DNA of 64,000 nt from Plumapathes pennacea. Taxonomy: Eukaryota; Cnidaria; Anthozoa; Antipatharia; Myriopathidae. The stretch lies in NCBI GenBank assembly GCA_964036295.1, contig OZ038464.1, positions 28,160,008 through 28,224,007 on the forward strand, read 5' to 3'. Positions 1,023 through 43,180 of this stretch are shown here, piece after piece; the stretch's first letter is position 1, and each line of letters begins with the position of its first letter. The translations under genes were made by a program, and so were the position numbers. The notes beneath the pieces were generated by a model. The model did no database searches. It was not told the origin of the DNA and was given only the letters and a program-made list of their open reading frames with translations.

Positions 1023-2114
1023 TTACTCGAAGGGAACCCCAAGCTCAGCCTTTTTAGGCTCAAACTTCTTCTCAAATTCACCACCTGGTGCCCTCATATC
1101 ATCAAGAATGCATTTCATAAGACATCCACGGTTGCAAACATACGTGCCACCGTCTGTTTCACCTTTAGCCCTGAGCCCTGTGTATCCCTGATGAATACCA
1201 ATCAATTGAAAATCATCATTGAACATTGGCGCTCCTGAAGATCCACCTTCCGTATCTGCTTCATCAAGAATCATATTTGGATTATTGGTGTACTTTGCAG
1301 CATCCAAAAACTCTGCTGGGAACGTCATAAACTTTTTTTTTTGTGGTTCCCCGACTGCAAGATTTTTCCTAAGCGAAGCTTTCATAGGGGAGCCGCCTGG
1401 ATAACTGAGTATATTGATGTGCTGACCTAAGATGTGCTCCTTGTCTCCCTTATAAATGTGTTTGACCAAACTAATTTGTGGTTCCTTAATCTCTTCAGTA
1501 GCCATGATTGCATAGTCTAGTTTATCATTAATGTGTTTAAACACGTCTAGTTGAAGGGTTACTCTCGTTTTCTTGGGAGGAGTTGAGTCGGCTTCGGCTG
1601 GGCAATTTATGTAATCTTCTTCATAATACTGAAACTGGATGAATGAATTGCCTGGAACTAGTGCCTTTGCTACATGTGCAGCGGTCATTACCAAGCGTTT
1701 GGACACTCTAAACCCAGTACCAATTGGCTTATTTCCATCCATAATCCGACCAATACTACCTCTAATAAAATACGCATTCCTTACAAAAAGCTCGTCGACA
1801 AGTTCGTTGTTTATGGCCATCTCATCTGTGTTTGAACCCCGCACCATCTTTTCTTCTGTCTTGTCTTTTGGTGGAACGCGTCCGCACATGATGTTAACGA
1901 CTTTTCCCAAGTGCTTAAGGTCGGGGAAATCCTCGTCTTTCGTGCATTGGAGAGCGTCACTGGCTTGCAGATCCAGCACTTCTCTGGCAACACTAGAAGG
2001 GAAAAATGAAGACAGTTCTTCGTCAATACTGGCTAAACGAATGAAGTTTTTCAAAGAGTCTTGATTTTTTTTGCAGCTGTTCAGGCTGCTTATAAGCTCC
2101 TGCGCAGAACACAT
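1023..2114 (-). CDS. Trypsin-like serine peptidase, paralogue 1 of 3
   Basis: Single open exon of 363 codons from the ATG at 2114 to a TAA at 1023. The chymotrypsin-fold (Trypsin_2/V8/HtrA-like) triad is visible: His147 in MTAAHVA, Asp200 in LDYAIMA, Ser293 in GGSSGAPMF. No signal peptide or membrane segment is seen, so the enzyme is probably cytosolic. About 85 N-terminal residues form a helical-looking region (AQELISSLNSC to HLGKVVNIMCGRVPP) that is not the PDZ of paralogue 3 nor the N-terminus of paralogue 2. The frame stays open about 20 codons upstream of the ATG and a possible acceptor (CATTCAG) lies near 2179, so a spliced upstream exon cannot be excluded. It lacks the C-terminal tail ending FCSTKK seen in the other two copies. 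Family assignment is firm; substrate is unknown. Confidence 0.85.
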   Translation of the reverse strand: MCSAQELISSLNSCKKNQDSLKNFIRLASIDEELSSFFPSSVAREVLDLQASDALQCTKDEDFPDLKHLGKVVNIMCGRVPPKDKTEEKMVRGSNTDEMAINNELVDELFVRNAYFIRGSIGRIMDGNKPIGTGFRVSKRLVMTAAHVAKALVPGNSFIQFQYYEEDYINCPAEADSTPPKKTRVTLQLDVFKHINDKLDYAIMATEEIKEPQISLVKHIYKGDKEHILGQHINILSYPGGSPMKASLRKNLAVGEPQKKKFMTFPAEFLDAAKYTNNPNMILDEADTEGGSSGAPMFNDDFQLIGIHQGYTGLRAKGETDGGTYVCNRGCLMKCILDDMRAPGGEFEKKFEPKKAELGVPFE

Positions 2115-4015: not shown

Positions 4016-4870
4016 CTAATAACACGTTAGCCGAGTCGAAAGCAACCGTATGTTATGCTCTTGTTGTTTGATCTGAGTTGTGTTGGTTTTAAAGTTCGTC
4101 ATGCTATTCATTTCCATCGAAAGTGACAAATTTAGCCATTTTCACTGCAGCATCTTGAGCTAGAATACGTGATGCACTAGTTGTTACAAATTGTTTTGTC
4201 GCGTGTGATTGCATGTAACAGTGTTGTTGACACAGGACAAAGAATGCGAGCAGAAGTTGACAAAGTGCGACATCATTGAAGTACTGAAGTACGCGCAGAA
4301 CCAGAACCAAAAAAAACACACAGAAACATGCACTGTACGAAAGATTTGTAACTTTGTAAATTTAGCGATTTTAAGCATAAAGTACAGACGCAAGACTGTT
4401 CGGGAATGAATGACTGCCCGTCGTGTAGAAAACGGCATCATGAATTCTAGTGAGTCACTTGGCGCTTTTTCGTTTCACTGTAATAGCTCGAATAACCAAA
4501 GGAAAAAAAGATTGAAATCCCTCCTGTTTAGATCAGTGCGATGGATGAAAAGATTGCGTGATATGTATAAAGAAACAGATAGTCATTTAGAGGGAAAGAC
4601 GAGTACATACCGAACAAAACTTGGTCAACAGATCCAGAGAGTCGGGACTGAAAGAAGTTCGATCTTGGGTAATTGGAACAAACTTATTATCCACTTTAAT
4701 ACCGTGATAAAATGGCATCACAAAAATGCGGTAAAATTTTTCTCATTTCTCGGTTACTAATTTGAACACAGGAAACAATTTCAATGATAAAAACAAAACA
4801 AGCGATCACCTGCGACGATGCGTATATCACGTTCGAAACCAATATGCATCATACGTTCCACAATATTGTT
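4016..4870. repeat. Duplicated non-coding block, copy 1 (parts R1-R2)
   Basis: Shares long diverged matches with 9137-10130. The R1 part contains ATGCACTAGTTGTTACAAAT and GACAAAGAATGCG; the R2 part contains ATGTATAAAGAAACAGATA and GACGAGTACATACCGAAC. R1 also recurs at about 5620-5885. Short frames in it are not conserved between copies, so it is treated as non-coding. Confidence 0.7.
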
Positions 4871-5019
4871 ATAAACAAACACCAACAGGGGGTGGCTTAA
4901 TTATCTTGATGGTTTTCCGATTTCTTTGGTTAATATGTCAAATAAATAATGTGATTAACGCCAACTTCATTTGCCGAGTTTCCAAGTGCTACTCGATGCC
5001 CATGGTTAAAACGATGAAC

Positions 5020-5885
5020 GTTTGTTGGAAAACATTTCAAGATTACCGGAGTTAGATTCGAGAGCCTTTCAATTTGGAACTCATATTGTTTTTGTTTGTT
5101 TCTACTTGATTGAAATCACTGTGAACGGACCCTTTGGCGCCAACTATGTAGTTATAATACTCTCACTGTAATGTATGAGAAGAACTTACAAAGAAAACTA
5201 ACCAAAGGAACTTTATTGATACCAGGATCCGGCTTACATCTAGAGAGGCCGTGTCGTTAAACACTTGTAGAATGTAGACAGATTTTTGATGATGACTTAT
5301 AATAAAATTGTAAACATTGCAAGTGTTTTGTTCCTTTGAACGCATTCATCACGCGATGGTGCTTTGTTAGTAAGCTATCAGCACGAACGGCTGTGTACTG
5401 AATATCATATGTATGATTTCTAATTATAAGACTTTTTGACTTGTAGGAGTATATTTCTCGCAAGAAAGTCTCCGAGTATTCAGTACGTCTTTGTAATTGT
5501 TGCCTCTTCTTTGAATGCTCGATAACGGCTACATTCAGTTCTTAAAATTTTGTGCACGCTCTGAAAACGACGTAGAAGTAAAGCATTTTTGAAGTTGCAC
5601 GCGAGAACACTCGAACTAGAATGCATGATTCACTAGTTATTACAAATCGTGTTGTCGCGTGTCAGGTCGCACGTATTAACAATGCTGTTGATACAAGACA
5701 AAGAATGCGGACATAGGTTGAAAGCGCGGCAAAGTGCGGCATCGCTAAAATTCTTACACGCACGGATAAAGAACCTGCATGAAACATAGTAACCTGTATT
5801 TGTACGAACCATGATATTTTTTTGTGAAAATAGTTTGTAACTTTTTTAATTTTAAGACATTTTAAGCACAATTACAGCCCCGAGG
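5020..5885. repeat. Duplicated non-coding block, copy 2 (parts R3-R1)
   Basis: R3 (about 5020-5400) matches 8700-9060 through CCTTTCAATTTGGAACTCAT and GTGTTTTGTTCCTTTGAACG. R1 (about 5620-5885) matches 4160-4290 and 9300-9420. The rest of the stretch between 2.8 and 6.5 kb shows no gene I can support. Confidence 0.65.
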
Positions 5886-6797: not shown

Positions 6798-8445
6798 TCA
6801 TTTTTTCGTGCTACAAAAGTTCTTTGTGAAAGCGGTGCCTTCAAAGGGAACTCCCAATTCAACTTTGTTACCCAGTTTTTGCTCAAATTTAGTGCTGGAC
6901 TCACTTCCTTGTGAATACATATCATTAAGAATGCTGGAAATAAGACATCCGCGGTTACAGACAAAATGTGCGTTCGGGTCTGTTTCACCTTCAGCCCTGA
7001 GCCCTGTCCATCCCTGATGGATACCAATCAACTGAAAATCATCATTGAACATTGGGGCCCCCGAAGATCCATAATCGGTATCTGCTTCATCGAGAATCAC
7101 ATCTGGATTTTTTGTGTACTTTGCGGAATCCAAAAACTCTCCTGGAAATGTCAAGAACTTTTTCTTTTCAGGTTGCGCAACTGCGAGATTTTTCCTCATT
7201 GAAACCTTCATGGTGGAGCCACCTGGGTGGCTAAGTATATTAATATGTTTACCTAAGAGGTGCTTTTTATCTCCTACATAAATGTGCTTCACAATACCAA
7301 CTTCTGATTGTTCCTGAATCTCTTCGGTGGCCATGATTGCATAGTCTAGCTCCTTATTAATGTGACTAAAGGTGTTTTGGTCCAGTTTTACTCTCGTTAA
7401 CTTTGGGGGAGTGAACATTGAGTCCTTAGCTGGGCAATCTGTGATTACGTCCTCATAATGATGAAACTGAATAGAGGAATTGCCTGGTTGCAGAGGTTCT
7501 GCTACGTGTGCAGCGGTCATAATCAAGCGTTTGGACACTCTAAACCCAGTACCTATCGCCTTATTTCCATCCATAATCCTCCCAATACTATTTCTCACTA
7601 AATACGCGTTCCTCAGGAAGATTTCATAGACAAATTCATCATTCATAACCATCTCATCTGTGTATGTACTTTTATGAGGTGGAACGCGTCCGGACATAAC
7701 GCTGACGACATTTCCCAAGTGCTGGAGATCTGGCAGATCTTTCTCCCACTTGGGAAGGTTACTGTGCTGGAAGACCAAATTTCCTGTTCCACTGGGAGGA
7801 AAAATGAAGATTCGTTAATAGAAAAGCTCAGATGAAAGCTAACTACGCTACAGTTTTCATTGTCATTCATACATTTTCTTTTTTTAAGGTTGAAAGAATC
7901 TGAATTTTTATCTTGGGAGTAAAAGGGTTTAAACTTACCCGAGGAGGTCCTCAGAATCGTCGATATCCAACTCACTTTCCTAGAGGAGAAAAAGGCTTTG
8001 AATTTTAATGTATACTTTAAACATAAAAATAAAAAGTTGTCATATTACGCTCGTTAGGGCCCGTTCACACTTGGGTGCTTTTTTATGCCAATTGGCAACA
8101 TGAGCTACTGTAAAATGTACAGAAATATACCATTCATATCTCGGTTACCTTCCCAAGCGTTTTAGGCTCTACCCATAGGGTTGTTCCAGCAAGAGCGGAT
8201 AGCAGCTCTCCTTGAGGATTCGGTATTTCGGAAAAAAGAGCTTTACCAGACACGGGATGATTAACAAGCTTTGACACAGTATACGTGGTTCTTTGGCTAT
8301 CGTCCTCGTTGTGATGGCACAGTAGGTTGTTTCTGATAGCTTGGTCTAACGTAGTTTGGCCATCTTCACTGGAAAGTAGTTTAGCGTCGATGTTCAAACC
8401 TTTTATCCAGAACACCTTTGCAGTATATTTCTCTTCTGCTGCCAT
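6798..8445 (-). CDS. Trypsin-like serine peptidase, paralogue 2, novel N-terminal module
   Basis: Three exons give 443 codons plus stop: 8445-8149 (99 codons, phase 0), 7979-7939 (41 nt) and 7791-6798. Junctions are AAG|gtaacc, ctag|GAAAG, CTCGG|gtaagt and cccag|TGG, and the frame is continuous. The last exon has His in MTAAHVA, Asp in LDYAIMA and Ser in YGSSGAPMF, and ends FTKNFCSTKK. The first exon (starts MAAEEKYTAKVFWIKG, ends LWVEPKTLGK) resembles no domain I recognise. The 41-nt middle exon encodes an acidic linker and matches, in length and phase, the 12665-12705 exon of paralogue 3. The start was chosen at the ATG at 8445; sequence just upstream is a dispersed repeat, consistent with 5' UTR. 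The encoded enzyme is probably cytosolic. Confidence 0.8.
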
Positions 8446-8459
8446 GACCAGATGCTGAA

Positions 8460-8620
8460 CAGCCTCACTTCTGTAGAGTACGAGAAAACGCCATCGCGGC
8501 TTACTTGCTTGGTCGCAATCAAGTTTTACAATTTGATTCTGATTGGTCGAGAACGCTGCCAAACTTGATTTGACCAATCCAAACGCAAAACCAATTAAAA
8601 GCAATGACACGATACAGTTC
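8460..8620 (-). repeat. Dispersed repeat with paired CCAAT-like boxes, copy B
   Basis: On the minus strand it reads TGTCATTGCTTTTAATTGG, then GATTGGTCAAATCAAGTTTGG, then GACCAATCAGAA, as in the 3484 and 63146 copies. It abuts the proposed start codon of paralogue 2, so the repeat may supply that gene's promoter or 5' UTR. Confidence 0.55.
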
Positions 8621-8699
8621 GACAGTCATCCAAAAACCTCTATATGCTGGTATTTTGTTTGATGCGCAAGGACCTCTAGCCGAATTTCTTCAGGTAAAA

Positions 8700-10130
8700 A
8701 ACTTTTGACGGTTTTTGGAAAATATTTTGAGATTACTGAAGCAGATGCGAGAACCTTTCAATTTGGAACTCATTTGTTGAATGTTTTTTTCTGCTTGATT
8801 GAATTTAGCGCCGACGACACATACTGTCGCTTGTAATGCTTTAAAAAATAACTTACAAAAAATAACTCAAAGTAATTTTATTCATACCAGGTAAGCAATT
8901 TTGGCTTATACTGAGCTGGTGGGGCCGTGTCGTTTAAAACACTTGTAGAATGCAAACAGACTGCTGGTAATTAGAAGAATATTGTAAACATTGTAAGTGT
9001 TTTGTTCCTTTGAACGCTTTTATCACGTGATGGTGTTTTGTTGATACATGAACGACTGTTTATTTGATGTGGGGTTTTTAGAAGTGTATTTCTTGGAAAA
9101 AAGGTCCGAATTTTTACATGAGATGTAGAGTTAGACTATAAACTGAACACGTTAGCTGAGTCAAACACGACGGCGGGAAGAGAAAGTGTAGGCCGTTAAT
9201 ATGCTCTTGTTCTTTGGCCTCAGCTATCTTCCTCGTGTCCTTCATTACCATCAAACGTGAAAATTTAACCATTTCACCAAAAGACAGAACAGAACATGTG
9301 TGATGCACTAGTTGTTACAAATTGTGTTGTCGCGTGTCAGGTCACACATAACAATGTTGTTGACACAAAACAAAGAATGCGGATAGCACAGCGAAATACT
9401 TAACACGCGCTGACAATCACTAAACTAGAACATTTGTATGAACCGTGCAGTGTTATCAAAGATTGTAGCTTTCTAACTGTAGCTTTAACAATTTTCAAGC
9501 ATTAATAATATTGGCGCAAGACTGGTTAATATAGTGTTGCTGCGGGAGAATTGAGTAAAAATGATTAATAAATGCTAATTAACAATGATAATACAGTGGA
9601 GAGTTAGTGATTGCCTCTCACGTGGCCGAAAGCGAGTTAGATGGTCACTTCATATTCGTTCCAGAATAGTATACCAACTTGGCCCGAGTACATGCAACAG
9701 CAACACATACAGTCTTGTTATTTGAAGCTCTGGGCCATCGTCTGAAACGAATGTTTTCTTTGAGTGGAGTCTTGATATCACGAATTCACTCTTTGTAAAT
9801 TTATTTTTCGCTTTACTGAATACCGTAACTCGAAAACCAAAAACGACGAAACGTAATGGCTACCTGTTACTGCGATGGGTCAAATGCGACGGCGTGGCAT
9901 GTATAAAGAAACAGATACTGGTAGAGGCAAAGACGAGTACATACCGAACAAAACTTGGTCACGAATGCTGCAAGTTAAAGTTGTCACTTACCACAATAAG
10001 TCATGGCATCACAAAAATGTGGTAAAATTTATCTCATTTCTTGGTTGCCAGTTGAACACAGGAAACAGTTTCAATCATCAAAACAAAACACCCAATCACC
10101 TGAGACGACGCGAAATCATGTACGTAGCCA
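8700..10130. repeat. Duplicated non-coding block, copy 3 (R3-R1-R2)
   Basis: The only copy with all three parts in order. It lies between the divergent paralogues 2 and 3 and so contains whatever promoter sequence they share. R3 matches 5020-5400, R1 matches 4016-4290 and 5620-5885, and R2 (9840-10130) matches 4495-4860. Confidence 0.7.
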
Positions 10131-10542
10131 ATTAACCCCCCTCCCGCCTCCCCTTTCTCCGGCCAGTGTTTACAGAGTTAAATTCCGTGTGCGCTGATTG
10201 GTCAGTCAATTACGTCCAAAATAGTTTGCCTAGATTAAATAAGTAGCCCTTTCACTGCCATAGAACAACGAACTCGACAGTAGAAAACGCTTTCCTCCGA
10301 AACTGTCAAACGAAACCTAAAGGTGTGACCACTCAAATGAGTATAGTCTAATAACAGTGTTCAATTTCAACTCCTCAACTGTCGAATGAAACAGCTAAAC
10401 ATGGCAGCCAAAACTGTTCAAAACAATTTGACGTATAATACAGGCCCACATTACCATTTTACTGCCAACAGGACGTCTTCGTGGTGATTACAAGATCGCA
10501 GTGTTCGCGTTGTTGTTGAACTTTATGTTTTTCTTTTGCAGT

Positions 10543-13500
10543 AACAGTGGTTTGACTTGGACAAAGAAACATGGAAAAGGAAGCTAAAGAGTCAACAAGG
10601 CCTTCCTCTGCCCTATCAATTTTAAGTTCAGTTATTTCAGGGTTCACTGGTTCTGCCGGTATGTAGCAATGTTCTATTTATTTTCTTATCGCATGCCCTC
10701 TATTCACCTGTAGCCATTACGCTATTTTCATTTTTACCTCTCAGCTGCAGTGCGTTTCTGTTGTTTGGTTTTCGAGCTATTCACATGTAGTTCTCGTGTT
10801 TCCGCGTTCTCAGCTTTTTGGCGTTTGTGTAAAGAACGAAGTTATGATAGGTCACTTCAACAGTGATTCCCATATAAAAAAGGACGGGGATGCTCGTCGT
10901 ACCTCTTAGGGGTCAGAATCACAGGTTTTGGTACCCCTTAGGTGCTCAACGTCAAACGCTGACATTTTTATGCGACGTACCTCTTAGGGGTCAAAACGAA
11001 AATCCCGACAAGCATCCTTGTCCTTTTTATGTGGGAGTACCCCCCTCCCCTCCCCTCTCCCGGGATCGGGGTTTCACTGTACTAGGATTTCATGTATTTT
11101 TAGCGACTTTAGGCGAGTTCGTATTGGGTAAAACAGAGACTAAGATACCAGTGAGGAGGGAGGTTCACCTCACCAGAGGACCAAATGGCTTTGGGATGAC
11201 TGTGAGGGGACCAATAGAGAGGCAGTTTAAAACATCAGATGGAAAGCTGGTAAAACATGCAGTCCAGCGCATAAGTGAAGTTGTGGAGAATGGCCCTGCA
11301 CAACAGGGAGGTATACAGCCTGGGGATTGCATCTTTAAACTTATAATGTAAATACTTTCTGTTCTCTGTTCTTTGTTGAGGAGATTGGCCTGCGAGGCGC
11401 CTGTCGCCTCTGTTTCAAAGCGAGGCCCAATGCAAATTTTTGAAGACAGCAAGTTCTAACGGGAAATAAAGGTTGTTGAATAATTTTGTCTTTGTTCTAG
11501 ATATTTCATCGATATCTTTATAATAAGCAGAATATTACAAGGCCGCTTGATACATTTCAACACTCGAAGCCATAAAATACATATCTTCGCGTGGCCGTGT
11601 AATATCCTTTATATTATTTACAACATGCGCACTGTACGAGTATCAGGATCACGGGTTTTATAGGTGACACTGTTCGGTGGACTTTTGGCGGAACCGGCTG
11701 TCCGTAAAGTCGACATAGAGTGATTTGTTTCGACTAAAGTTATTTGTGCCATAGCGCATGCTCCAGTTTTGTTTTTTGTTGTTTGACAAAGACGCGTATG
11801 GTTTTCAATGAGGCCCCTCACTAGCTAGAATTTGCTTGTGCTTCGCCGCTTAATCTAGTGACACATGCTACGTCATAAACATGATTCCTGAGCAAAATCT
11901 TTCCAGATGGGCAGTGTTTCTGGAATTGCTGTTCAGAAAATGTTCGGAAGAAGCTCGGATATAAACCACAGAGCTGCGAAATTTGCAGGAAAATAAAGAT
12001 GCATATGTTATGGAGTTCTGTCGAATAAGCGAAGGTCTTTTGAGGCTTTTTATTTCACCGTTTTATTCCTAATAAACTTGGATGCAAACGCTCTGCTTTG
12101 ATTCTCTTTTTCTCAGAAATGGTAGAGATGTGGAGACTGCTGATCATGATTATGTATGTGAGTGCATTAAGAAAACTGATGAGCTGACACTGATTGTTGT
12201 TTCCGACAGCGACTATGAGGTAAAAGTATTTCTTAGAAATTTGGTTTTGTATAGAGCGGTTTTCGGATGACTGTCGAAAGTAATTGTGCTTACAAATCAC
12301 AGGGCGCAGAGGAGTTCGCTTGCTTGCCATTATGTAAAACCCTATATATTGACCTACACGAAAGATACCGCAAGACGATTTCATCGTGGGCGCGCGAAGA
12401 TGCGCGTATAAAATACTGACTTGTGCCTTTGCGCGCCTACGATGCAGTCGTTCTCTGGTATCTTCATGTAGGTCAATATATAGGGTTTTGGAAAGCAAGC
12501 GAACTCCTCTGCGCTCTGTGATCAAAACACCTTCAAGCAATCAGAAGCTGAGGGTTACAGTGCCAATCACAGAGGCTCGCTAAGAAAACACTTTGAAGGC
12601 CAACCAGAAAAGTAAGTAATTTCCAAATATTACTTTGAACTCTCTTTTCTTATCTGTCCACTAGGCCAAAGATCAGTTGGATATATTTGGACAAGACATC
12701 CTCAGGTAAATTCCTATTGCATGAAAATCATTCATGCACTAGTGAGCAACATTAAGAATGAATGGTTGGTCAAGTTTGGACGCCATAAGGCATCGTGCTC
12801 CATCCAATAGAAGGACCATGTTTTCCTCCTTAGCACAAATGTATGGCACGTCACTCACCAATACATTCTTCGTAATTTTTGTAGATTTGGTAAGGTCGTT
12901 TCTTGAATATATTGGTAATTACAAAGTTTAACCATTTCTATTTATGGAGTTTGTTTGTTTGTAGATTTAAATTTGATTCAAAGAAAATTATAATTAAAGC
13001 AGTTAACCCTTACATCTCGCCTTCATAGGCCGAGAAAAGTTGCCCCGGGGACCAGAGTCACCCTCCTTCACGAGTTATAATCACACTATAAAATTGTTCA
13101 CACAATAAGTTGCTCATTCCCCTAAGAAGTTTCTCGTGTAAATGGCTTGTTTTGATTTTTATAAAGAAATGTATGAATAGTTGGCGCGCCCAGGTGACTC
13201 AGGAAGGAGGGCGTGTCGTTTCCCTTGACAACTTTTCTCTATACAAACAGGCCTTAGAAGACAAACAAGTACAAAAGAATAAATTGGTTGTGTTTGTTTG
13301 ATTGACTTCGTTGATGTATGCCTCTACCTATCACTGCATGAGAAAGAACTGTCTTTACGCTTTCTTGCAGAGGCGTAGAACTTGTTTTCCAGAATCTCGA
13401 CGCAGCTTTTGGTGGGGACAAACATTTGCCAGATCCTCAACACTTGCAAAATGTCTTCAACGTCATGAGCGGACATGTTCAACCAAAGAACCAGATTGAA

Positions 13501-14361
13501 TGGCGTTTGGTAGATGAGAAAAATATCAATAACGAACTTGTCGGTGAGCTATTCGTAAGGAGCGCTTATATAGTGAGAAATAGTATTGGCAGGATTATAA
13601 ATGGAAATAAGGCGATAGGTACTGGGTTTAGAGTGTCCAAACGCTTGATAATGACCGCTGCACATGTAGCAAAGGCACTGGACCCAGGCAATTCTTTTAT
13701 CCAGTTTCATCATTTTGATGACCCAATTGCCAATTGTCCAGCTGTTGACGACAAAACTCCCAAATCACCGGGAATAAAATTTCAAAAAGAAACGTTTCAC
13801 TGTAATGGCAATGCACCGCTAGACTATGCAATCTTGGCCACCGACGAAGAGATTCCGGATCAAGTTAGTGTAGTTAAATATGTTTATGAGGGAGATGTGG
13901 AGCACCTTTCAGGTAAACACATCAATATACTTAGCCACCCAGATGGTGACTCCATGAAATGTTCGTTAAGGAAAAATCTTGCAGTGACGCAAGACAAAAA
14001 AGAAAAACTTGTGGCGTTCTCAGAGGAGTCATTTTTAGATCAAGCAAAGCTTCAAAATGTAATTCTTAATGAAGCAGATACAGATGGTGGATCTTCAGGG
14101 GCGCCAATGTTCAATGATGATTTTCAGCTGATTGGTATTCATCAGGGATTTCTAAGCTCTTCACAAGCAGCACAAAGCCAAACGAAACCGGTTGTCTGTA
14201 ACCGTGGATGTCTTATTAGCTTTGTTCTTAGTGATATGTATTCACAAGGAAGTGAGTCCAGCACCGAATTTGAGCAAAAATTAAAGGGTAAAAAAGATGA
14301 ATTGGGAGTTCCCTTTGAAGGCACCATTTTCACAAAGAACTTTTGTAGTACGAAAAAATGA
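10543..14361 (+). CDS. PDZ-trypsin-like peptidase fusion, paralogue 3
   Basis: Exons: a tentative 10543-10659 (frame ends LSSVISGFTGSA, donor gtatgt), 11113 (or 11104)-11347, 12117-12219, 12665-12705 and 13371-14361; phases agree from 10659 onward. Exons two and three encode a PDZ domain: REVHLTRGPNGFGMTVRG holds the GLGF-type carboxylate-binding loop, and GPAQQGGIQPGDCIF and NGRDVETADHDYV follow. The 41-nt exon is the linker shared with paralogue 2. The last exon has His in MTAAHVA, Asp in LDYAILA and Ser in GGSSGAPMF, ending CSTKK-TGA. The order PDZ then protease is the reverse of HtrA. The initiator is not resolved: the ATG at 10571 is in the wrong phase, and an ATG at 10401 (MAAKTVQN) does not splice cleanly. 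AATAAA lies at 14404. No targeting signal is visible. Confidence 0.8.
10868..11060. repeat. Dispersed repeat inside intron, partly inverted
   Basis: The left side carries AAGGACGGGGATGCTCGTCG; the right side carries its inverted relative (CGACAAGCATCCTTGTCC). GTACCTCTTAGGGGTC occurs twice between them, and a run of C/T follows. The long frame that extends the PDZ exon leftwards through this block is repeat, not exon. Confidence 0.6.
12296..12522. mobile_element. 227-bp foldback (inverted-repeat) element in intron
   Basis: Begins ATCACAGGGCGCAGAGGAG and ends with the near-perfect inverted complement CTCCTCTGCGCTCTGTGAT. The arms pair through CCTATATATTGACCTACA over about 100 bases each with a short GC-rich centre. 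It sits between the PDZ and linker exons of paralogue 3. No frame and no convincing target duplication. Confidence 0.75.
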
Positions 14362-27500: not shown

Positions 27501-28308
27501 TTAACGACAAAATCGTGCGTAAATCCGCAAGAAAGTCGATGTGAAAAGCGTTTTGTGACAGACCGTTACTCATTCTGTTCGAATTTTAAATTCAAAAATC
27601 GCGAGGTTACTGGTCTCAAAGAACACTCACCTTCCATCCATCAGGAGCGGTCTTGAAATACGGAAACTTGCCCCTGTGGTGGAAAAGAAACCTTTACATT
27701 AATTGATCGCTAAATTTACCAAGGAATCATTCAGGGCGGGCAACTCACATCATGAACTTGTATATCTCGCTGACAGGTAGGGTCCCATTTTCACTGTTCT
27801 TCAAGGCCATCGCGATGAGACAAGAGTAGGAGAACACTGGTTTCGGGTAGGGTTTTTCCTGTGTTTTCGTCTTGTCCTTACTCTGGATTTTAGTGCAGGG
27901 CTCGGCGGCTTTTGGCTGGCTTTCTACTGCACGTGTTTGATGCACCATTTGGGGTGGTGCAACCGATACAGATGCGAGATGATGCTGGCTCGAAGACCAC
28001 TGAACGGGTAACGCAGTATTTGGATCGACCATCACTTGCTCCTTGTTCGATGAGCCTTTCTCCATTGGAATACTGACATGTTGTAGCCATTGGAGATTCG
28101 TTAGATCGCCCGGAGCAGGGCGAACTGGACTTCCTTCCTGTTTTATCGTTGCTCGTTGCAAAATTTCTGGCGAGACAAACGTGTGTTGATCTGCGAAGAG
28201 CGGGTCGTTAAAATTGAAATCCATCTCCTGCATATCGCATTCCACCATCTCTTGCAAAGACATGGCTTCCGAGGAATCAAAATACGCCGTGTCGAAGTTT
28301 CCGTTCAT
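24543..28308 (-). CDS. Forkhead transcription factor, FoxN1/FoxN4 group
   Basis: Four exons give 390 codons: 28308-27749, 27673-27631, 25450-25264 and 24925-24543; junction phases all agree. The winged-helix domain spans residues about 155-250 and is split by two introns: [18 protein letters not shown], then [14 protein letters not shown], then [15 protein letters not shown] and GCLWSLKP. The words [22 protein letters not shown] and RKGCLW are diagnostic of FoxN1/4 rather than FoxJ or FoxN2/3. The N-terminus is acidic and serine-rich with an NLQWLQ word; the C-terminus (after NPDELNI) has an acidic patch LDWDDII and a threonine run, consistent with a transactivation region. The start is the ATG at 28308. 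In vertebrates this group directs thymic epithelium, skin and retinal progenitors; the role here is unknown. A 2.2-kb third-exon-flanking intron carries no gene. Confidence 0.93.
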
Positions 28309-28412
28309 CACTAAAATTCGTATGAAAAATTTCCGTCTGCAAGAACTGGGGACTGAAGTTATCTCCTCTGTGAATCAGTTACTGGTTATTTGACCAACTG
28401 ACAGAGTCGCCC

Positions 28413-37100: not shown

Positions 37101-39104
37101 TGTCAACCAATGGGAGGTTGAAGGAATAGTATGTTGAACTGTGGGGAGATTTTGGCTCCAATCATTGTTGAATCCAGTCTTTTTATTGCAGAAGTCAGGA
37201 ATGGACTGGAGAGTATATCACAGACTTCCAGGAACTTCTTCCTGGTATGCCAAATTTTGTATAGAAAAATTTATAAATTTGAGTTTTACAATCAGCCTGC
37301 ACAATAGACTTCTTCATGTATAACCAGGACCTCTCTGAAAATTGTTTTGGGATGAGAGCTTCCTGTTAAAGTCACTCCTCTGGTCGCTGATTATCTTTAT
37401 AAAATTAATATATTAATAATATTATTGTTTGTATGCACAGGTGGTGCTCATTCTGTTGAGTTGGATGAGGAGGTGTGTAAACTGCTTCTTGTTCAAACTC
37501 TTGATCCTAGTATTTTTTAGAAGTGTTCACATTTCAATTTTGTTTCTTCATATTTTTCTTTATATTTTTCTCTTCTTTTCATTTTCTTCTCTTTTGTCTT
37601 CTCTGTCTTTTTTTGATATCTATCTTTCCTCAATCTTTTTCAGGAAGCCTTAGATTCCACTGATGCCCCAGATATTTCCTTGGTGACTGGAAACATGAGG
37701 CCCAGTTATAAAACCCAGACAGGTGTGACTACCATACACTACAAAATGTTCTCAATTATTATTGAAATTGGATAGGGTTACCTATTCCAGGCCAAAAAGA
37801 CAATATCTATGCTCTATTCCAGACCTGTACCCTATCCCAGAGTAAAACGATAACAAAATCTATACCCTTTCCAGACCAAAATGCTTAAAATGATACTCTT
37901 TGGGGTGGCATATGCCTCTGTGGCTCATTTATCAGAGAAACACATATATAGAGGATATTACACGGCGGCGCGAAGATATAAATTTTATTTTCGAGTGGTA
38001 AAAACAATATTTTACGAACGAGCGCTTCGCGAGTGAGTAAAATATTGTTTTTACCACGAGAAAATAAAATCCATATCTTCGCGCCGCCGTGTAATTTTCT
38101 TTTTATTATATTTGACACAAATGTTTTACCAGAAATTGCACAAACAACCGTGCAAAAGCGGGAAATGATTCCAACGATATCCTCACTAGTGAAGATATGG
38201 AAAATACGCCACTCGGGTCCCGGATGTAGTTTCGTATGGATTTTACGCACGGTATATTTTCCAGTAAAACACTCGTGTCTATATAATAAAATATAATACT
38301 GCATCACACTTGATCTGAGAAAGATGTCATGGCAAACTTCGTGGCAATGTATGTGATGGTAGTATCATTTTCTTTGTCTTATGTTTATTTCCACAGATAC
38401 TATATCTTTGTCGGTTGTCCAAAGAAATCAAGAAACTGCCATAGCCACACAGCACCACACATCAGGAGGTAGATTTCACGAGAGAAGAATGCAGCTTGAA
38501 CAATGGGGAGGAGTCAAGAATGCTACATACACAGTCTTCCCTCAACCAGTCTCAGTCACAAACCTCAGTCGCACTAATATTGATTTCACTACAAGCCACA
38601 TACACTCTCCCTTGTTCACTCACTCTATTCCAAACCAGTCACTGACCCTGCTCCACGCAAAAATATGCCCTCCCCGTAATTGACTCCCAAAACAAAGCAC
38701 CTTACTGCATTGTGATTTGAACACTTGCTCTTAAAGTATTTTAGCAATGCTTGAGTATGTAACGAACACTCACGTTTCACTTGCTCAGGTCAAAATAAAA
38801 AATCAATGAGAAACACTGCTAAAAAATAATTGTATTTTCTGAACATTTTGATTTTGAGGGGTGGGGGAGGGGGAATTGGGGGTCTGGACCAGACTGCTCT
38901 CTCAAAACAGTCATTTTAACATGGATGTCATTCTTATTTCTTGCAGCGGAATTTCTCACTTCGCGCTCATGGCAAGGCCTTGAGCAGAAACTTGGGGAAA
39001 GCCAGGTCACAACAGCAGTAGTAGGGAGAAAAGGAATCGCAGCAGGATATACCCACGAAACGGGCTCAGAAATGACAGACGGAGGAACAAACCTGGGAGA
39101 ATAA
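31120..39104 (+). CDS. DPH2: Diphthamide biosynthesis protein 2
   Basis: Sixteen exons give 511 codons with continuous phase: 31120-31293, 31635-31747, 32064-32141, 32705-32847, 33471-33621, 33892-34009, 34104-34177, 34908-34975, 35570-35628, 36191-36301, 36585-36637, 37192-37244, 37441-37472, 37644-37722, 38397-38468 and 38947-39104. Recognisable family words: [90 protein letters not shown], and the C-terminal [10 protein letters not shown]...[15 protein letters not shown]2 forms a dimer with DPH1 in the cytosol. This iron-sulfur enzyme transfers the 3-amino-3-carboxypropyl group of S-adenosylmethionine to a histidine of eEF2, the first step of diphthamide. The length fits the human protein (about 490). 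Intron 5 starts with GC. Some introns carry MITEs. Confidence 0.95.
31809..31918. repeat. Short inverted-repeat element in DPH2 intron
   Basis: GTCCTGACAGCAG at the left and CTGCTGTCAGGAG at the right are complementary, about 110 bases apart. A second inner pair (ACTTTGCTGCC / GGCAAAGT) lies between. A small MITE is likely; no clear target duplication. Confidence 0.5.
32212..32250. repeat. (CCCCCA)n low-complexity tract
   Basis: Tandem CCCAC/CCCCCA units inside DPH2 intron 3, followed by further C-rich sequence to about 32305. Confidence 0.7.
33234..33401. mobile_element. Tc1/mariner (pogo/Tigger-like) MITE
   Basis: 168 bp, starts CAGTGGAACCCC and ends GAGTTCCACTG, flanked by TA on both sides. 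Lies in DPH2 intron 4. No coding capacity. Confidence 0.65.
34558..34794. mobile_element. Tigger-like MITE, diverged or composite
   Basis: 237 bp, starts CAGTCAAACCTGTATTTAG and ends GATAGCAGGGTTCTACTG, flanked by TA. Internal words repeat (AAGATAGTGGGG, GAGATAGTGGGGTTCTACCA), suggesting nesting of two related copies. In DPH2 intron 7. Confidence 0.55.
37775..37920. repeat. SINE-like dispersed fragment
   Basis: Contains GGTTACCTATTCCAGGCC, CTATTCCAGACCTGTACCC and TTCCAGACCAAAATG, the style of the body of the SINE at 53430-53824 (AACAGGGTATATTTG, CCAGACAAAATGAC). A partial copy in DPH2 intron 14. Confidence 0.4.
37956..38096. mobile_element. Foldback repeat, about 140 bp
   Basis: The left arm (TTACACGGCGGCGCGAAGATA, then GTGGTAAAAACAATATTTTAC) is the inverted complement of the right arm, around a short CGAGCGCTTCGCGAG centre. 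Lies in DPH2 intron 14. The word ATATCTTCGCG(C/T) also occurs at 11580-11592. Confidence 0.75.
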
Positions 39105-40488: not shown

Positions 40489-41987
40489 CTACTTTTTGCC
40501 ATAGACGTAAACAGTGTGGTTGAAGCCTCTGGCAAATTGTGACGTAACCTTCACCTGGACATGTTTTTGACCAACCCCACCGCTGATGATTTCTGGGTCG
40601 CCGCCAGTTTCATCGTCCCAGTTATCACGGGCCACTACAGCAGTTATCTCCTTGTTCCCGATGTATTGAAAAACGTGGGTGACGCAACCAAGCAATTTAA
40701 AACTCGGACACTTTCTTTCTTCGTGTAACAGGATATCTCCGAGTTTTGGTGTGCCTACTAATAGGTTATGTCGTCCACTACCACTGTGTAGTAATTCGTT
40801 CACAGTTCCCCATACTTTTCCAGCTTTGTCGACAAGCTCCTCAGCAACACAATCCGTTGCAATCACATTCCTGTTACAATCTGAATAAAAACATATATTA
40901 CTCCCACGTAAACTCTACAGTCATTATATACAATACTTGCTGGACTCCCGTAAAATACGGGTTTCTGGCGGTTTCTGAAAGTTACTGGAGTTAAGGAGCT
41001 TTCTTTGGAGTTATTCTAGCTCAGGAGTCAAGACCAAACGTGAATGTGAACCTGTTAACCTTTGAGCCTTTCGAATTTGTAAGAAGCGTATTTTCCGTTC
41101 CTAAGACTCCTGTAATTATTTGTTTTATAGTTTTTACCGTATCTGTGTACTTGTGAAGTCGGCCCAGTCTGAATTAAACTGTTTAAATCTCGCTGTCCAC
41201 CTGCTGCCTGTACGCATTGGTTAAACTGGCGAACTTCGGCACGCCACGCCCCGTGTCGGTGGTGCTGGGAACGCGACAATTTGTGTCACTAAGATGACTT
41301 GAATTAATATATTTTTGCGTTGAAAATCCATTGCTTGACGCCGTACGTGTAAATACATCGTTGCGCCAAATTTTTTCATGCAGTTTGACGGGCAGATTTT
41401 CCCGCATTTACTTGTGAAGTTTGTCGGCCGTAGCACGGGAATGAATGAACACAAATTGGTTTCCAGTTTTGAATTCATTTATGGAGTACGATTAAATAGC
41501 TTCCCGTCCAAATTTTCGGGCTTCACTGGACGGTGGCATGTTTGTCTCAGACATGCATGTTTAATGACTGACAGACTGACGAACTTAAGAATGCAAATAG
41601 CGTCTTAATTATTACCCTCGCATCGGGCAGACAAAATGTTTCAAAATGACTTCGTGAAATGATGTAAAATCGAAACATTTTGCCTTTCTTTAACATTAAT
41701 AGCAATAGAATTGCAAAATTCAGTGTTTTAAACTCACCTGCTTCCAAATCATCAGCAAGGCGACTTTGGTTGACTTGTCTAAGGGCACTTATCAGCATGC
41801 TACGCTGTGATTCCACAGGACAATTGTCAGACCAGGCTATGAGCATATCAAACGCTTTATCGGAAGGATTACACTGCTTCATAGATATCTCTTGAATTGT
41901 ATACCGATCCACTCCCAGTTTATACGCCAAATCCACCCAACATCCGATCACTTTTTTGGACAACTCTCGCAGTTTCCCGTAATCCAT
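40489..41987 (-). CDS. Death-domain protein with unrecognised C-terminal domain
   Basis: Two exons, 41987-41738 and 40880-40489, joined in phase 1 (GCAG|gtgagt, attcag|ATTG), give 213 residues. Residues 3-83 are a death domain: VIGCWVDLAYKLGVD, a helix-2 IQEISMKQ, DKAFDMLIAWSDN and LISALRQVNQSRLADDLE. Residues 84-213 contain no domain I know. They begin with CNRNVIATDCVAEELVDKAG and end with VTSQFARGFNHTVYVYGKK. An acceptor (ttttgacag) lies just before the ATG, so a 5' UTR intron or an upstream exon is possible. Death domains assemble apoptotic and innate-immune complexes through like-like binding. A deleted copy of this gene lies at 49620-49960. Confidence 0.8.
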
Positions 41988-42110
41988 GTTACGCCCTGTC
42001 AAAACTAAAAAGGAAAGAAAACAATAATTCAAACATTTCTTACTAGAATTACAATAATCGCAGATATAACCTCGCCCTGTAGTGGGTTTTCGGAAAGCCG
42101 GATTCGTGTC

Positions 42111-43180
42111 TTTCTATTTCGTCATTGGTTTAAGTCGCTAGTAAGTTGATAAAGCGCGGGAACCCGAGCCTTCAGTTTTAGAGTTGAACTTCTGGCAGTC
42201 AGTGATTGAAGAAGGGCAGTTTTTGGATCAAATTAAAGTACAACCACGTTAAGAGAGTCCAATCATAGAGGTTATACTGGTATCTGAAATTTTCATCGTT
42301 TAGCGACACACAGAGCAGTCGTGATACCAAGTTAATTTGCTTTATAAAAAAACGTTGACAAACGAGTAACTTAAGTTGGCTGACCGAGTGGACGTAAACA
42401 ATGAAAGTATATTGTTCCTCACCTTAATTTAGAACAGATAAAGAGCACTAATGTTTCTCATCAGCAGAGATTAGTCTTTCTACATATACTGTACTCACAA
42501 AACTTGCAGACGGGGGACAGGTATAACCCCCCTTACAGGGCCCTACTATTTGGATAGCTCGAGAGCGCTATGCCGCGCAGCTCCTTTCAAGTGTTACCAT
42601 AATTTGCCTCCAAGCATCACAGACGATTTAAGGTTTCCGCTGTAAACTCGAGTAATCATCACCGTCAACAATTCTTGTACCAACACAATTTATTTGTGAT
42701 TGAGAATTTTTTGCCACTTAATGCCAGGCATCTTTCACTGTAACACCGAAAGATAATTCACAAAACTCTCCAAGAAACAGGAGGACGAATATTCGTATCA
42801 AACTCTTATTTTGCAATGACAACGCACGTATTATTGCGCATTTTGAGCTAGGAAGGCAACCAAAAACACACATCTTTCCTCACGCTTCTTGAATATTTTC
42901 GGTGTTACTCATGCATGCATGATCGTCTTTATTACATAGTCAAACAAGGAAGTCAAAATATGTCACATAAATAGTGCTTCTTTTCCTGGTACAGACTTTT
43001 TGCGAGCATTGCTCGAATTTACAGCGGAAAACCTTAAGAGCTGTTTTACTCTTGGCTTAGCGAAAAAAATATTCCGTATTGCAATGGTTTCTTGCCAGTA
43101 CAGTGTTTTGTTTCGTATATTTTGTCCGTTGTATACAAGTTGTAAATAAACTTCATTTGTCATCGGCCGCGTTGATAATT
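42111..43180. other. Intergenic, no gene seen
   Basis: AT-rich sequence with only short frames. The first part (42036-42110) is the flank duplicated at about 49885-49960. Confidence 0.45.

Follow-up and report, generated by a model that had tools for sequence, protein, structure and literature searches.

Three protease genes lie at 1.0-14.4 kb of the window, the 64,000-nucleotide stretch of Plumapathes pennacea DNA analysed here, and a fourth member of the cluster (G3, locus L003) sits just to its left, at C3:28157746-28158702. We refer to the three genes inside the window as paralogues 1, 2 and 3, which in the family numbering are G2, G1 and G4, respectively. G5-G26 denote the remaining family members, numbered as loci L005-L026 of our genome search. 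The exons of the three genes are collected in Table 1.

Table 1. Exons of the three protease genes, in window coordinates.
Feature	Position	Strand	Remarks
Paralogue 1 (G2), Met-started extension of the ORF	1993..2114	-	coding or intron; the proposed third N-terminus
Paralogue 1, protease exon	1023..1992	-	counted from a phase-2 acceptor placed as in the paralogues
Paralogue 2 (G1), first coding exon	8149..8445	-	99 codons from ATG; orphan module
Paralogue 2, linker exon	7939..7979	-	41 nt; phase 0 in, phase 2 out; splice sum 10.2
Paralogue 2, protease exon	6798..7791	-	phase-2 acceptor; ends with the stop codon
Paralogue 3 (G4), first coding exon	10571..10658	+	gene model
Paralogue 3, PDZ exon, first part	11113..11347	+	Pfam PDZ (4.5e-6) and PDZ_6 (1.5e-6) on 11109-11348
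Paralogue 3, PDZ exon, second part	12117..12219	+	gene model
Paralogue 3, linker exon	12665..12705	+	41 nt; phase 0 in, phase 2 out; splice sum 5.37
Paralogue 3, protease exon	13371..14361	+	Pfam Trypsin_2 (2.8e-12) on 13342-14361

The first-pass annotation had proposed that a PDZ exon in paralogue 3 and an unrelated 99-residue exon in paralogue 2 each precede a 41-nt linker exon and a homologous protease exon. Both exon orders were borne out. The five exons of paralogue 3 join into a single open protein of 485 residues that carries the Pfam PDZ match; the 31 residues of the second part of the PDZ exon, searched alone, have no Pfam match. The three exons of paralogue 2, joined by hand, give an open protein of 443 residues with matching phases. 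Homology of the protease exons is equally clear, the other three cluster members being 64-70% identical to paralogue 2, whose catalytic triad is visible as His (AAHV), Asp (LDYA) and Ser (GSSGAP) motifs. G3 retains an open frame in which both the catalytic His (AANV) and the Asp (LNYA) have become Asn, while the paralogues beside it keep full motifs; it is likely a pseudoenzyme.

The suggestion that paralogues 2 and 3 carry the same linker held for place, length and phase, but not for sequence. Only three open 41-nt AG..GT pairs on the two strands of the window reach a splice sum of at least 5, namely the two linkers and 7172-7212, and the linker of paralogue 2 scores highest. The linkers have length, phases and position in common, and their peptides are not alike beyond chance: the in-register BLOSUM score is 0 and the best score at a small offset was reached in 746 of 5000 shuffles, so we discarded homology by sequence. 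A search for linker-like 41-nt exons before G2, G3, G5, G6, G7 and G11 returned a best score of 3, against 63-65 for the linkers themselves.

The 99-residue exon of paralogue 2 ends in phase 0 at AAG/GTAACC, a donor scoring 2.12 against a 95th percentile of 1.32 for the GTs of that window strand. Its own-frame score of -1.0 is the best of six without being positive, the five other frames scoring -17.7 to -33.1, and our gene finder shortened the exon at an internal GT. Neither a Pfam match nor a further copy in its own genome turned up. An AlphaFold2 model from the single sequence was uninformative (pLDDT 47.6) and was left out of fold searches. By eye a beta-grasp (ubiquitin-like) fold seems conceivable, which we treat as speculation.

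The first-pass annotation gave paralogue 1 a third N-terminus, and here the picture is mixed. Its ORF does have a Met-started extension, but it also contains an acceptor at window position 1992 (score 2.91), in phase 2 as in G1, G3 and G4, which the gene finder chose. The 122 nt before this acceptor score -2.7 in frame, -19.8 and -9.1 in the other sense frames and +2.8 in one antisense frame; these frame scores are compatible with coding sequence as well as with an intron. Upstream of paralogues 1 and 2, the DNA at ~4160-5750 and 8740-10110 has several similar blocks in common, with apparent changes of order, which should be useful for dating the duplication and for placing the first exon of paralogue 1.

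Elsewhere in the window, an ORF on the minus strand at 41550-42113 contains a Death domain (Pfam 1.4e-7) and marks another gene of cell-death type, and the start of a Forkhead domain gene lies at 27748-28374, also on the minus strand (Pfam 1.3e-7). A non-protease, ORF-like stretch at 37888-38364 (minus strand) recurs upstream of locus L022 and is probably a repeat element.

The cluster belongs to a large family. Searching the 290-Mb genome with the protease exon of paralogue 2 gave 32 matches, 26 of which span most of the protease domain; the alignment omits the others, which comprise four fragments and a divergent gene split over two matches. Of the 26 protease exons, 25 carry the His, Asp and Ser motifs, the exception being G3, which has lost His and Asp. 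Since a Trypsin_2 search of the genome yields 48 matches, including places outside these 26, the count is a lower bound for the wider family. Crude NG86 estimates of dN/dS over 220-230 codons range from 0.20 to 0.81 in 11 chosen paralogue pairs, among them young pairs with few changes.

A profile of the 26 exons, searched against the PDB, placed human FAM111A first (8s9l, 8.1e-13) and staphylococcal Spl proteases next (2.4e-10), with HtrA far below at 0.09. Consistent with this, a Foldseek search with an AlphaFold2 model of the protease (pLDDT 74.7) returned FAM111A on top (8s9k, 4.1e-12, 20% identity, TM-score 0.52 by query length and 0.66 by target length), with many other trypsin-fold chains closely behind. 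By profile and predicted fold, the family is most like the human FAM111A protease domain among PDB structures, a ranking that covers S1 proteases of known structure. Bacterial genomes contained 404 stretches with the family motifs, of which 171 were relatives and 80 were kept, the latter with 23-31% identity. Viral contigs gave 19 pattern stretches and no relatives.

What precedes the protease exon varies widely. We examined 1.5 to about 8.6 kb of upstream DNA per member and found an assignable module on the same strand, within about 6 kb, in 11 of the 26, representing seven kinds. Besides the PDZ domain of paralogue 3 and the orphan exon of paralogue 2, which lies ~0.3 kb before its protease exon, G9 has TPR_12 (5.2e-31, 4.6-6 kb upstream) and ZU5 (2.6e-13, ~3.5-3.9 kb upstream), G10 has Death (1.6e-10) in the exon directly before the protease exon, and G13 has Roc (3.6e-15, 4.4-5.7 kb upstream) and COR-A (1.6e-12, 2.0-2.5 kb upstream). 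G12 is a close copy of the G13 exons over the 1.5 kb examined, a span that stops short of Roc and COR-A. An HEPN-like ORF, whose HEPN match is at best 0.0096 and below Pfam's cut-off, precedes all three tandem members at C1:7.21-7.28 Mb (G22, G23 and G24). A 208-residue module that has no name precedes G17 and G19. The distance from module to protease exon thus runs from that of the orphan exon to ~6 kb for TPR in G9 and Roc in G13. In G9, G12 and G13, the exon directly before the protease, behind ZU5 or COR, has no Pfam name.

The 208-residue module is itself repeated. An array at C11:11.42-12.32 Mb (L128-L135, L028 and L029) holds eight copies; a full protease exon lies less than 3 kb beyond two of them, and a short inverted protease fragment ~2 kb beyond four. 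Thirteen further, more distant matches on C2, C3, C7 and C12 bring the number to 21. We considered whether the module is a dead trypsin copy and rejected the idea (hhalign probability 1.1%, no PDB match, best Pfam match 0.016). Two other candidates were likewise dropped: a NACHT domain before G19, for which only a sub-threshold NLRC4_HD2 match turned up (0.027, ~6 kb upstream), and a UPA domain in G9, seen by eye and negative in Pfam.

The 15 members to which we assigned no module are G2, G3, G5-G8, G11, G14-G16, G18, G20, G21, G25 and G26, the last of which has coiled-coil-like predicted exons. As a control, we scanned 150 of 161 ORFs of at least 58 residues upstream of such members, a length below which exons would escape; 11 low-complexity or overlapping ORFs, including the only one of G8, were dropped. 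The span covered was ~3.5 to 8.6 kb for G3, G5, G6, G7, G11, G16, G18, G25 and G26 and ~1.5 kb for G8, G14, G15, G20 and G21. No Pfam match was better than 0.005, and three families had a single match each at 0.005-0.008, none convincing. The recognised modules therefore do not appear upstream at random, because the control ORFs gave none below 0.005. Across the scanned family pieces there was also no Pfam match to a ubiquitin-like (UBL) domain.

For most members with a module, splice sites at the module and protease ends correspond in phase. In G9, G10, G12 and G13, the last exon before the protease reaches a phase-0 donor ahead of an in-frame stop (AAG/GTGTGT in G12 and G13, ACG/GTCAGT in G9, CAG/GTGAAT in G10), and all four protease exons start at a phase-0 acceptor before Glu/Lys-Asp. 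The best donor of the HEPN-like exon in G23 and G24 is in phase 1 (AAG/GTGAGT, score 5.59), as is that of the 208-residue module in all eight copies tested. Matching phase-1 acceptors are the best ones in the protease exons of G17, G19, G22 and G24; G23 has no acceptor above threshold. The gene finder settled on a phase-2 acceptor for the window cluster and for G6, G7, G8 and G11; for G5, reading by eye pointed to a phase-2 acceptor and the gene finder to a phase-1 site. Donors this good, in a set phase and within 30 nt, are expected by chance at 0.02% to 2% of places. Individual sites can be weak, such as the acceptor of G10 at -0.64, or modest, such as the donor of G9 at 1.66.

The gene finder took up the joins of G9, G12, G13, G19, G23 and G24 in outline. 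It also passed over the Death exon of G10, preferred a different acceptor in G9 and a phase-0 one in G17, and predicted tiny exons that are implausible. It is a small script with hand-set costs, partly trained on these protease exons, so its agreement or disagreement is soft. From the donors and acceptors together we infer that module and protease exons are spliced together in RNA.

We set the modules against a maximum-likelihood tree of the 26 protease exons and eight bacterial relatives chosen from the 80 loci. Subclade A (G1-G4, support 100/99) contains two module kinds, subclade C (G9, G10, G12 and G13, 100/100) three, and subclade E (G15-G17, G19, G20 and G22-G25, 100/99) two. The best joining sites share one phase per subclade, 2 in A, 0 in C and 1 in E, with exceptions. 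Support for the bacterial root is weak (56/92), and long branches lead to G26 and to two of the bacterial rows. Because no homology is recognisable between the modules, there is no second tree to set against that of the protease, and the mapping is itself the test. Tabulated over the homologues in this one genome, the N-termini differ within three protease subclades, and a single fixed N-terminus, the outcome that would have contradicted the first-pass annotation, is not what we see. These sequence comparisons support a constant protease with an exchanged front well beyond the window cluster. The accompanying suggestion of a sensor-effector immune family stands apart, in that sensing and immunity can only be inferred.

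Combining these observations, we think it somewhat probable that the genes form an expanded intracellular family of FAM111-like, trypsin-like proteases in which splicing across an intron connects the protease exon with an exchangeable module upstream. In our models the protease exon is always the last exon. New architectures may have arisen when the protease exon and its upstream intron were duplicated and the upstream exons were then replaced by exons of the same phase. Roc-COR, Death, ZU5/TPR and PDZ domains are clustering or docking modules. The upstream module could accordingly sense a ligand or oligomerise (Roc-COR, ZU5/TPR, Death, HEPN-like) or dock on a partner (PDZ), and clustering would then activate the protease in the way that dimerisation activates FAM111A. 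According to PMC10920703, FAM111A requires dimerisation for activity against substrates; we favour activation by proximity because of this requirement and because the modules are of clustering or docking kinds. Once active, the protease might serve defence or cell death by cleaving a protein of the host or of an invader. For immunity, a sensor-effector role is our best guess.

One challenge to this reading is that each protease exon is a short gene in its own right and the modules belong to separate genes of immune type that happen to lie nearby. Such an arrangement could pass for fusion in joins read from genomic DNA alone, and some of the 15 members that show no module in the upstream DNA examined may indeed be stand-alone proteases; a plausible Met lies near the start of the protease exon in some (G25 and G21), and HEPN-like ORFs also occur far from family proteases. 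Separate genes would not be expected, however, to carry a donor of the right phase before the stop in G9, G10, G12, G13, G23, G24 and every tested copy of the 208-residue module, with most of the matching protease exons beginning at acceptors of the same phase. Nor would they be expected to place an HEPN-like ORF before each member of the C1 tandem while members lacking a module have no recognised domains upstream. We regard simple neighbourhood as unlikely.

The protease itself invites a more conventional account, in which an ordinary FAM111/HtrA-like family with loosely evolving N-termini does DNA-protein crosslink or protein quality work and has no immune role. FAM111A acts at replication forks and PDZ domains occur in Deg/HtrA proteases, as described in PMC9798293. 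Against this, the PDZ domain here lies upstream of the protease, HtrA trails FAM111A by many orders of magnitude in the profile search, and one loose PIP-box pattern found no match in paralogues 1-3 (according to the same source, the PIP box is first seen within mammals). In our judgement, Roc-COR, ZU5 and Death also suit signalling better than repair, and we consider this account quite improbable. Even less credence goes to the notion that most members are decaying tandem duplicates collecting random flanking exons. Decay has left its mark on G3, which lacks two triad residues, and on the inverted protease fragments beside four C11 copies of the 208-residue module, but the triad motifs survive in every other exon and dN/dS is below 1 in all 11 pairs tested, which makes wholesale decay very unlikely.

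A bolder reading goes further, and we offer it as possible but doubtful. Beside caspases, animals would have a second class of protease-armed receptors, combining a FAM111-like protease with Roco, ZU5/TPR, Death and HEPN-like sensors, with an ancestry that lies in, or is shared with, bacterial EAD-trypsin and NucA-trypsin conflict systems. Vertebrate FAM111A, an antiviral restriction factor, would be a survivor of this class whose sensor end has been lost. What drove the evolution of FAM111A, a protein studied for its part in human disease and virus restriction, is a question posed in PMC9798293. If an early-animal family carries this protease fused to modules of immune type, restricting invaders would seem to be the older role. 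The family would also supply ready constructs for asking what activates the protease, and would extend from bacteria to animals the domain swapping around a fixed core that characterises conflict systems.

Comparison with known systems brings out both shared and differing features. With FAM111A and FAM111B (S1, unassigned subfamily), the family shares a Trypsin_2 domain with an H-D-S triad. A helix before the first strand of the family model (residues 47-57) falls where FAM111A has its dimer helix, as described in PMC10920703, and the stretch after the last strands also aligned in the profile search against the PDB. The family differs in having 26 members rather than one or two, varied N-termini and, in the pieces scanned with Pfam, no recognised ubiquitin-like domains; FAM111A of the octocoral Paramuricea clavata also lacks UBLs, as PMC9798293 reports. 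The contrast with HtrA/Deg proteases is one of order, as here the PDZ domain is upstream of the protease and is found in paralogue 3 only. There it is C-terminal to the protease.

Bacterial relatives share the same Trypsin_2 core. All seven that we scanned with Pfam have it; two also match Endonuclease_NS and one each EAD8, Peptidase_C25 and GDSL lipase, while two match trypsin families only. PMC7159879 treats NucA-trypsin and EAD-trypsin proteins as conflict systems. The partner domains differ from those found here, and the two nuclease fusions begin with the trypsin part and end with the nuclease.

In the open-licence literature we found no report of fusions like those proposed here, which is weak support for their novelty. 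Cnidarian NACHT occurs with 35 Pfam domains, including HEPN, Death and ZU5 (PMC8260672, whose main text does not contain the word "Trypsin"), and COR is listed with apoptotic GTPases in PMC8195603. Animal NLR and Roco proteins are a close parallel in layout: Roc-COR, ZU5, TPR, Death or HEPN-like modules would precede an enzymatic end in one chain, provided that the joins are real. The family differs in that no NACHT domain is shown in it, and its enzymatic end is a FAM111-like serine protease.
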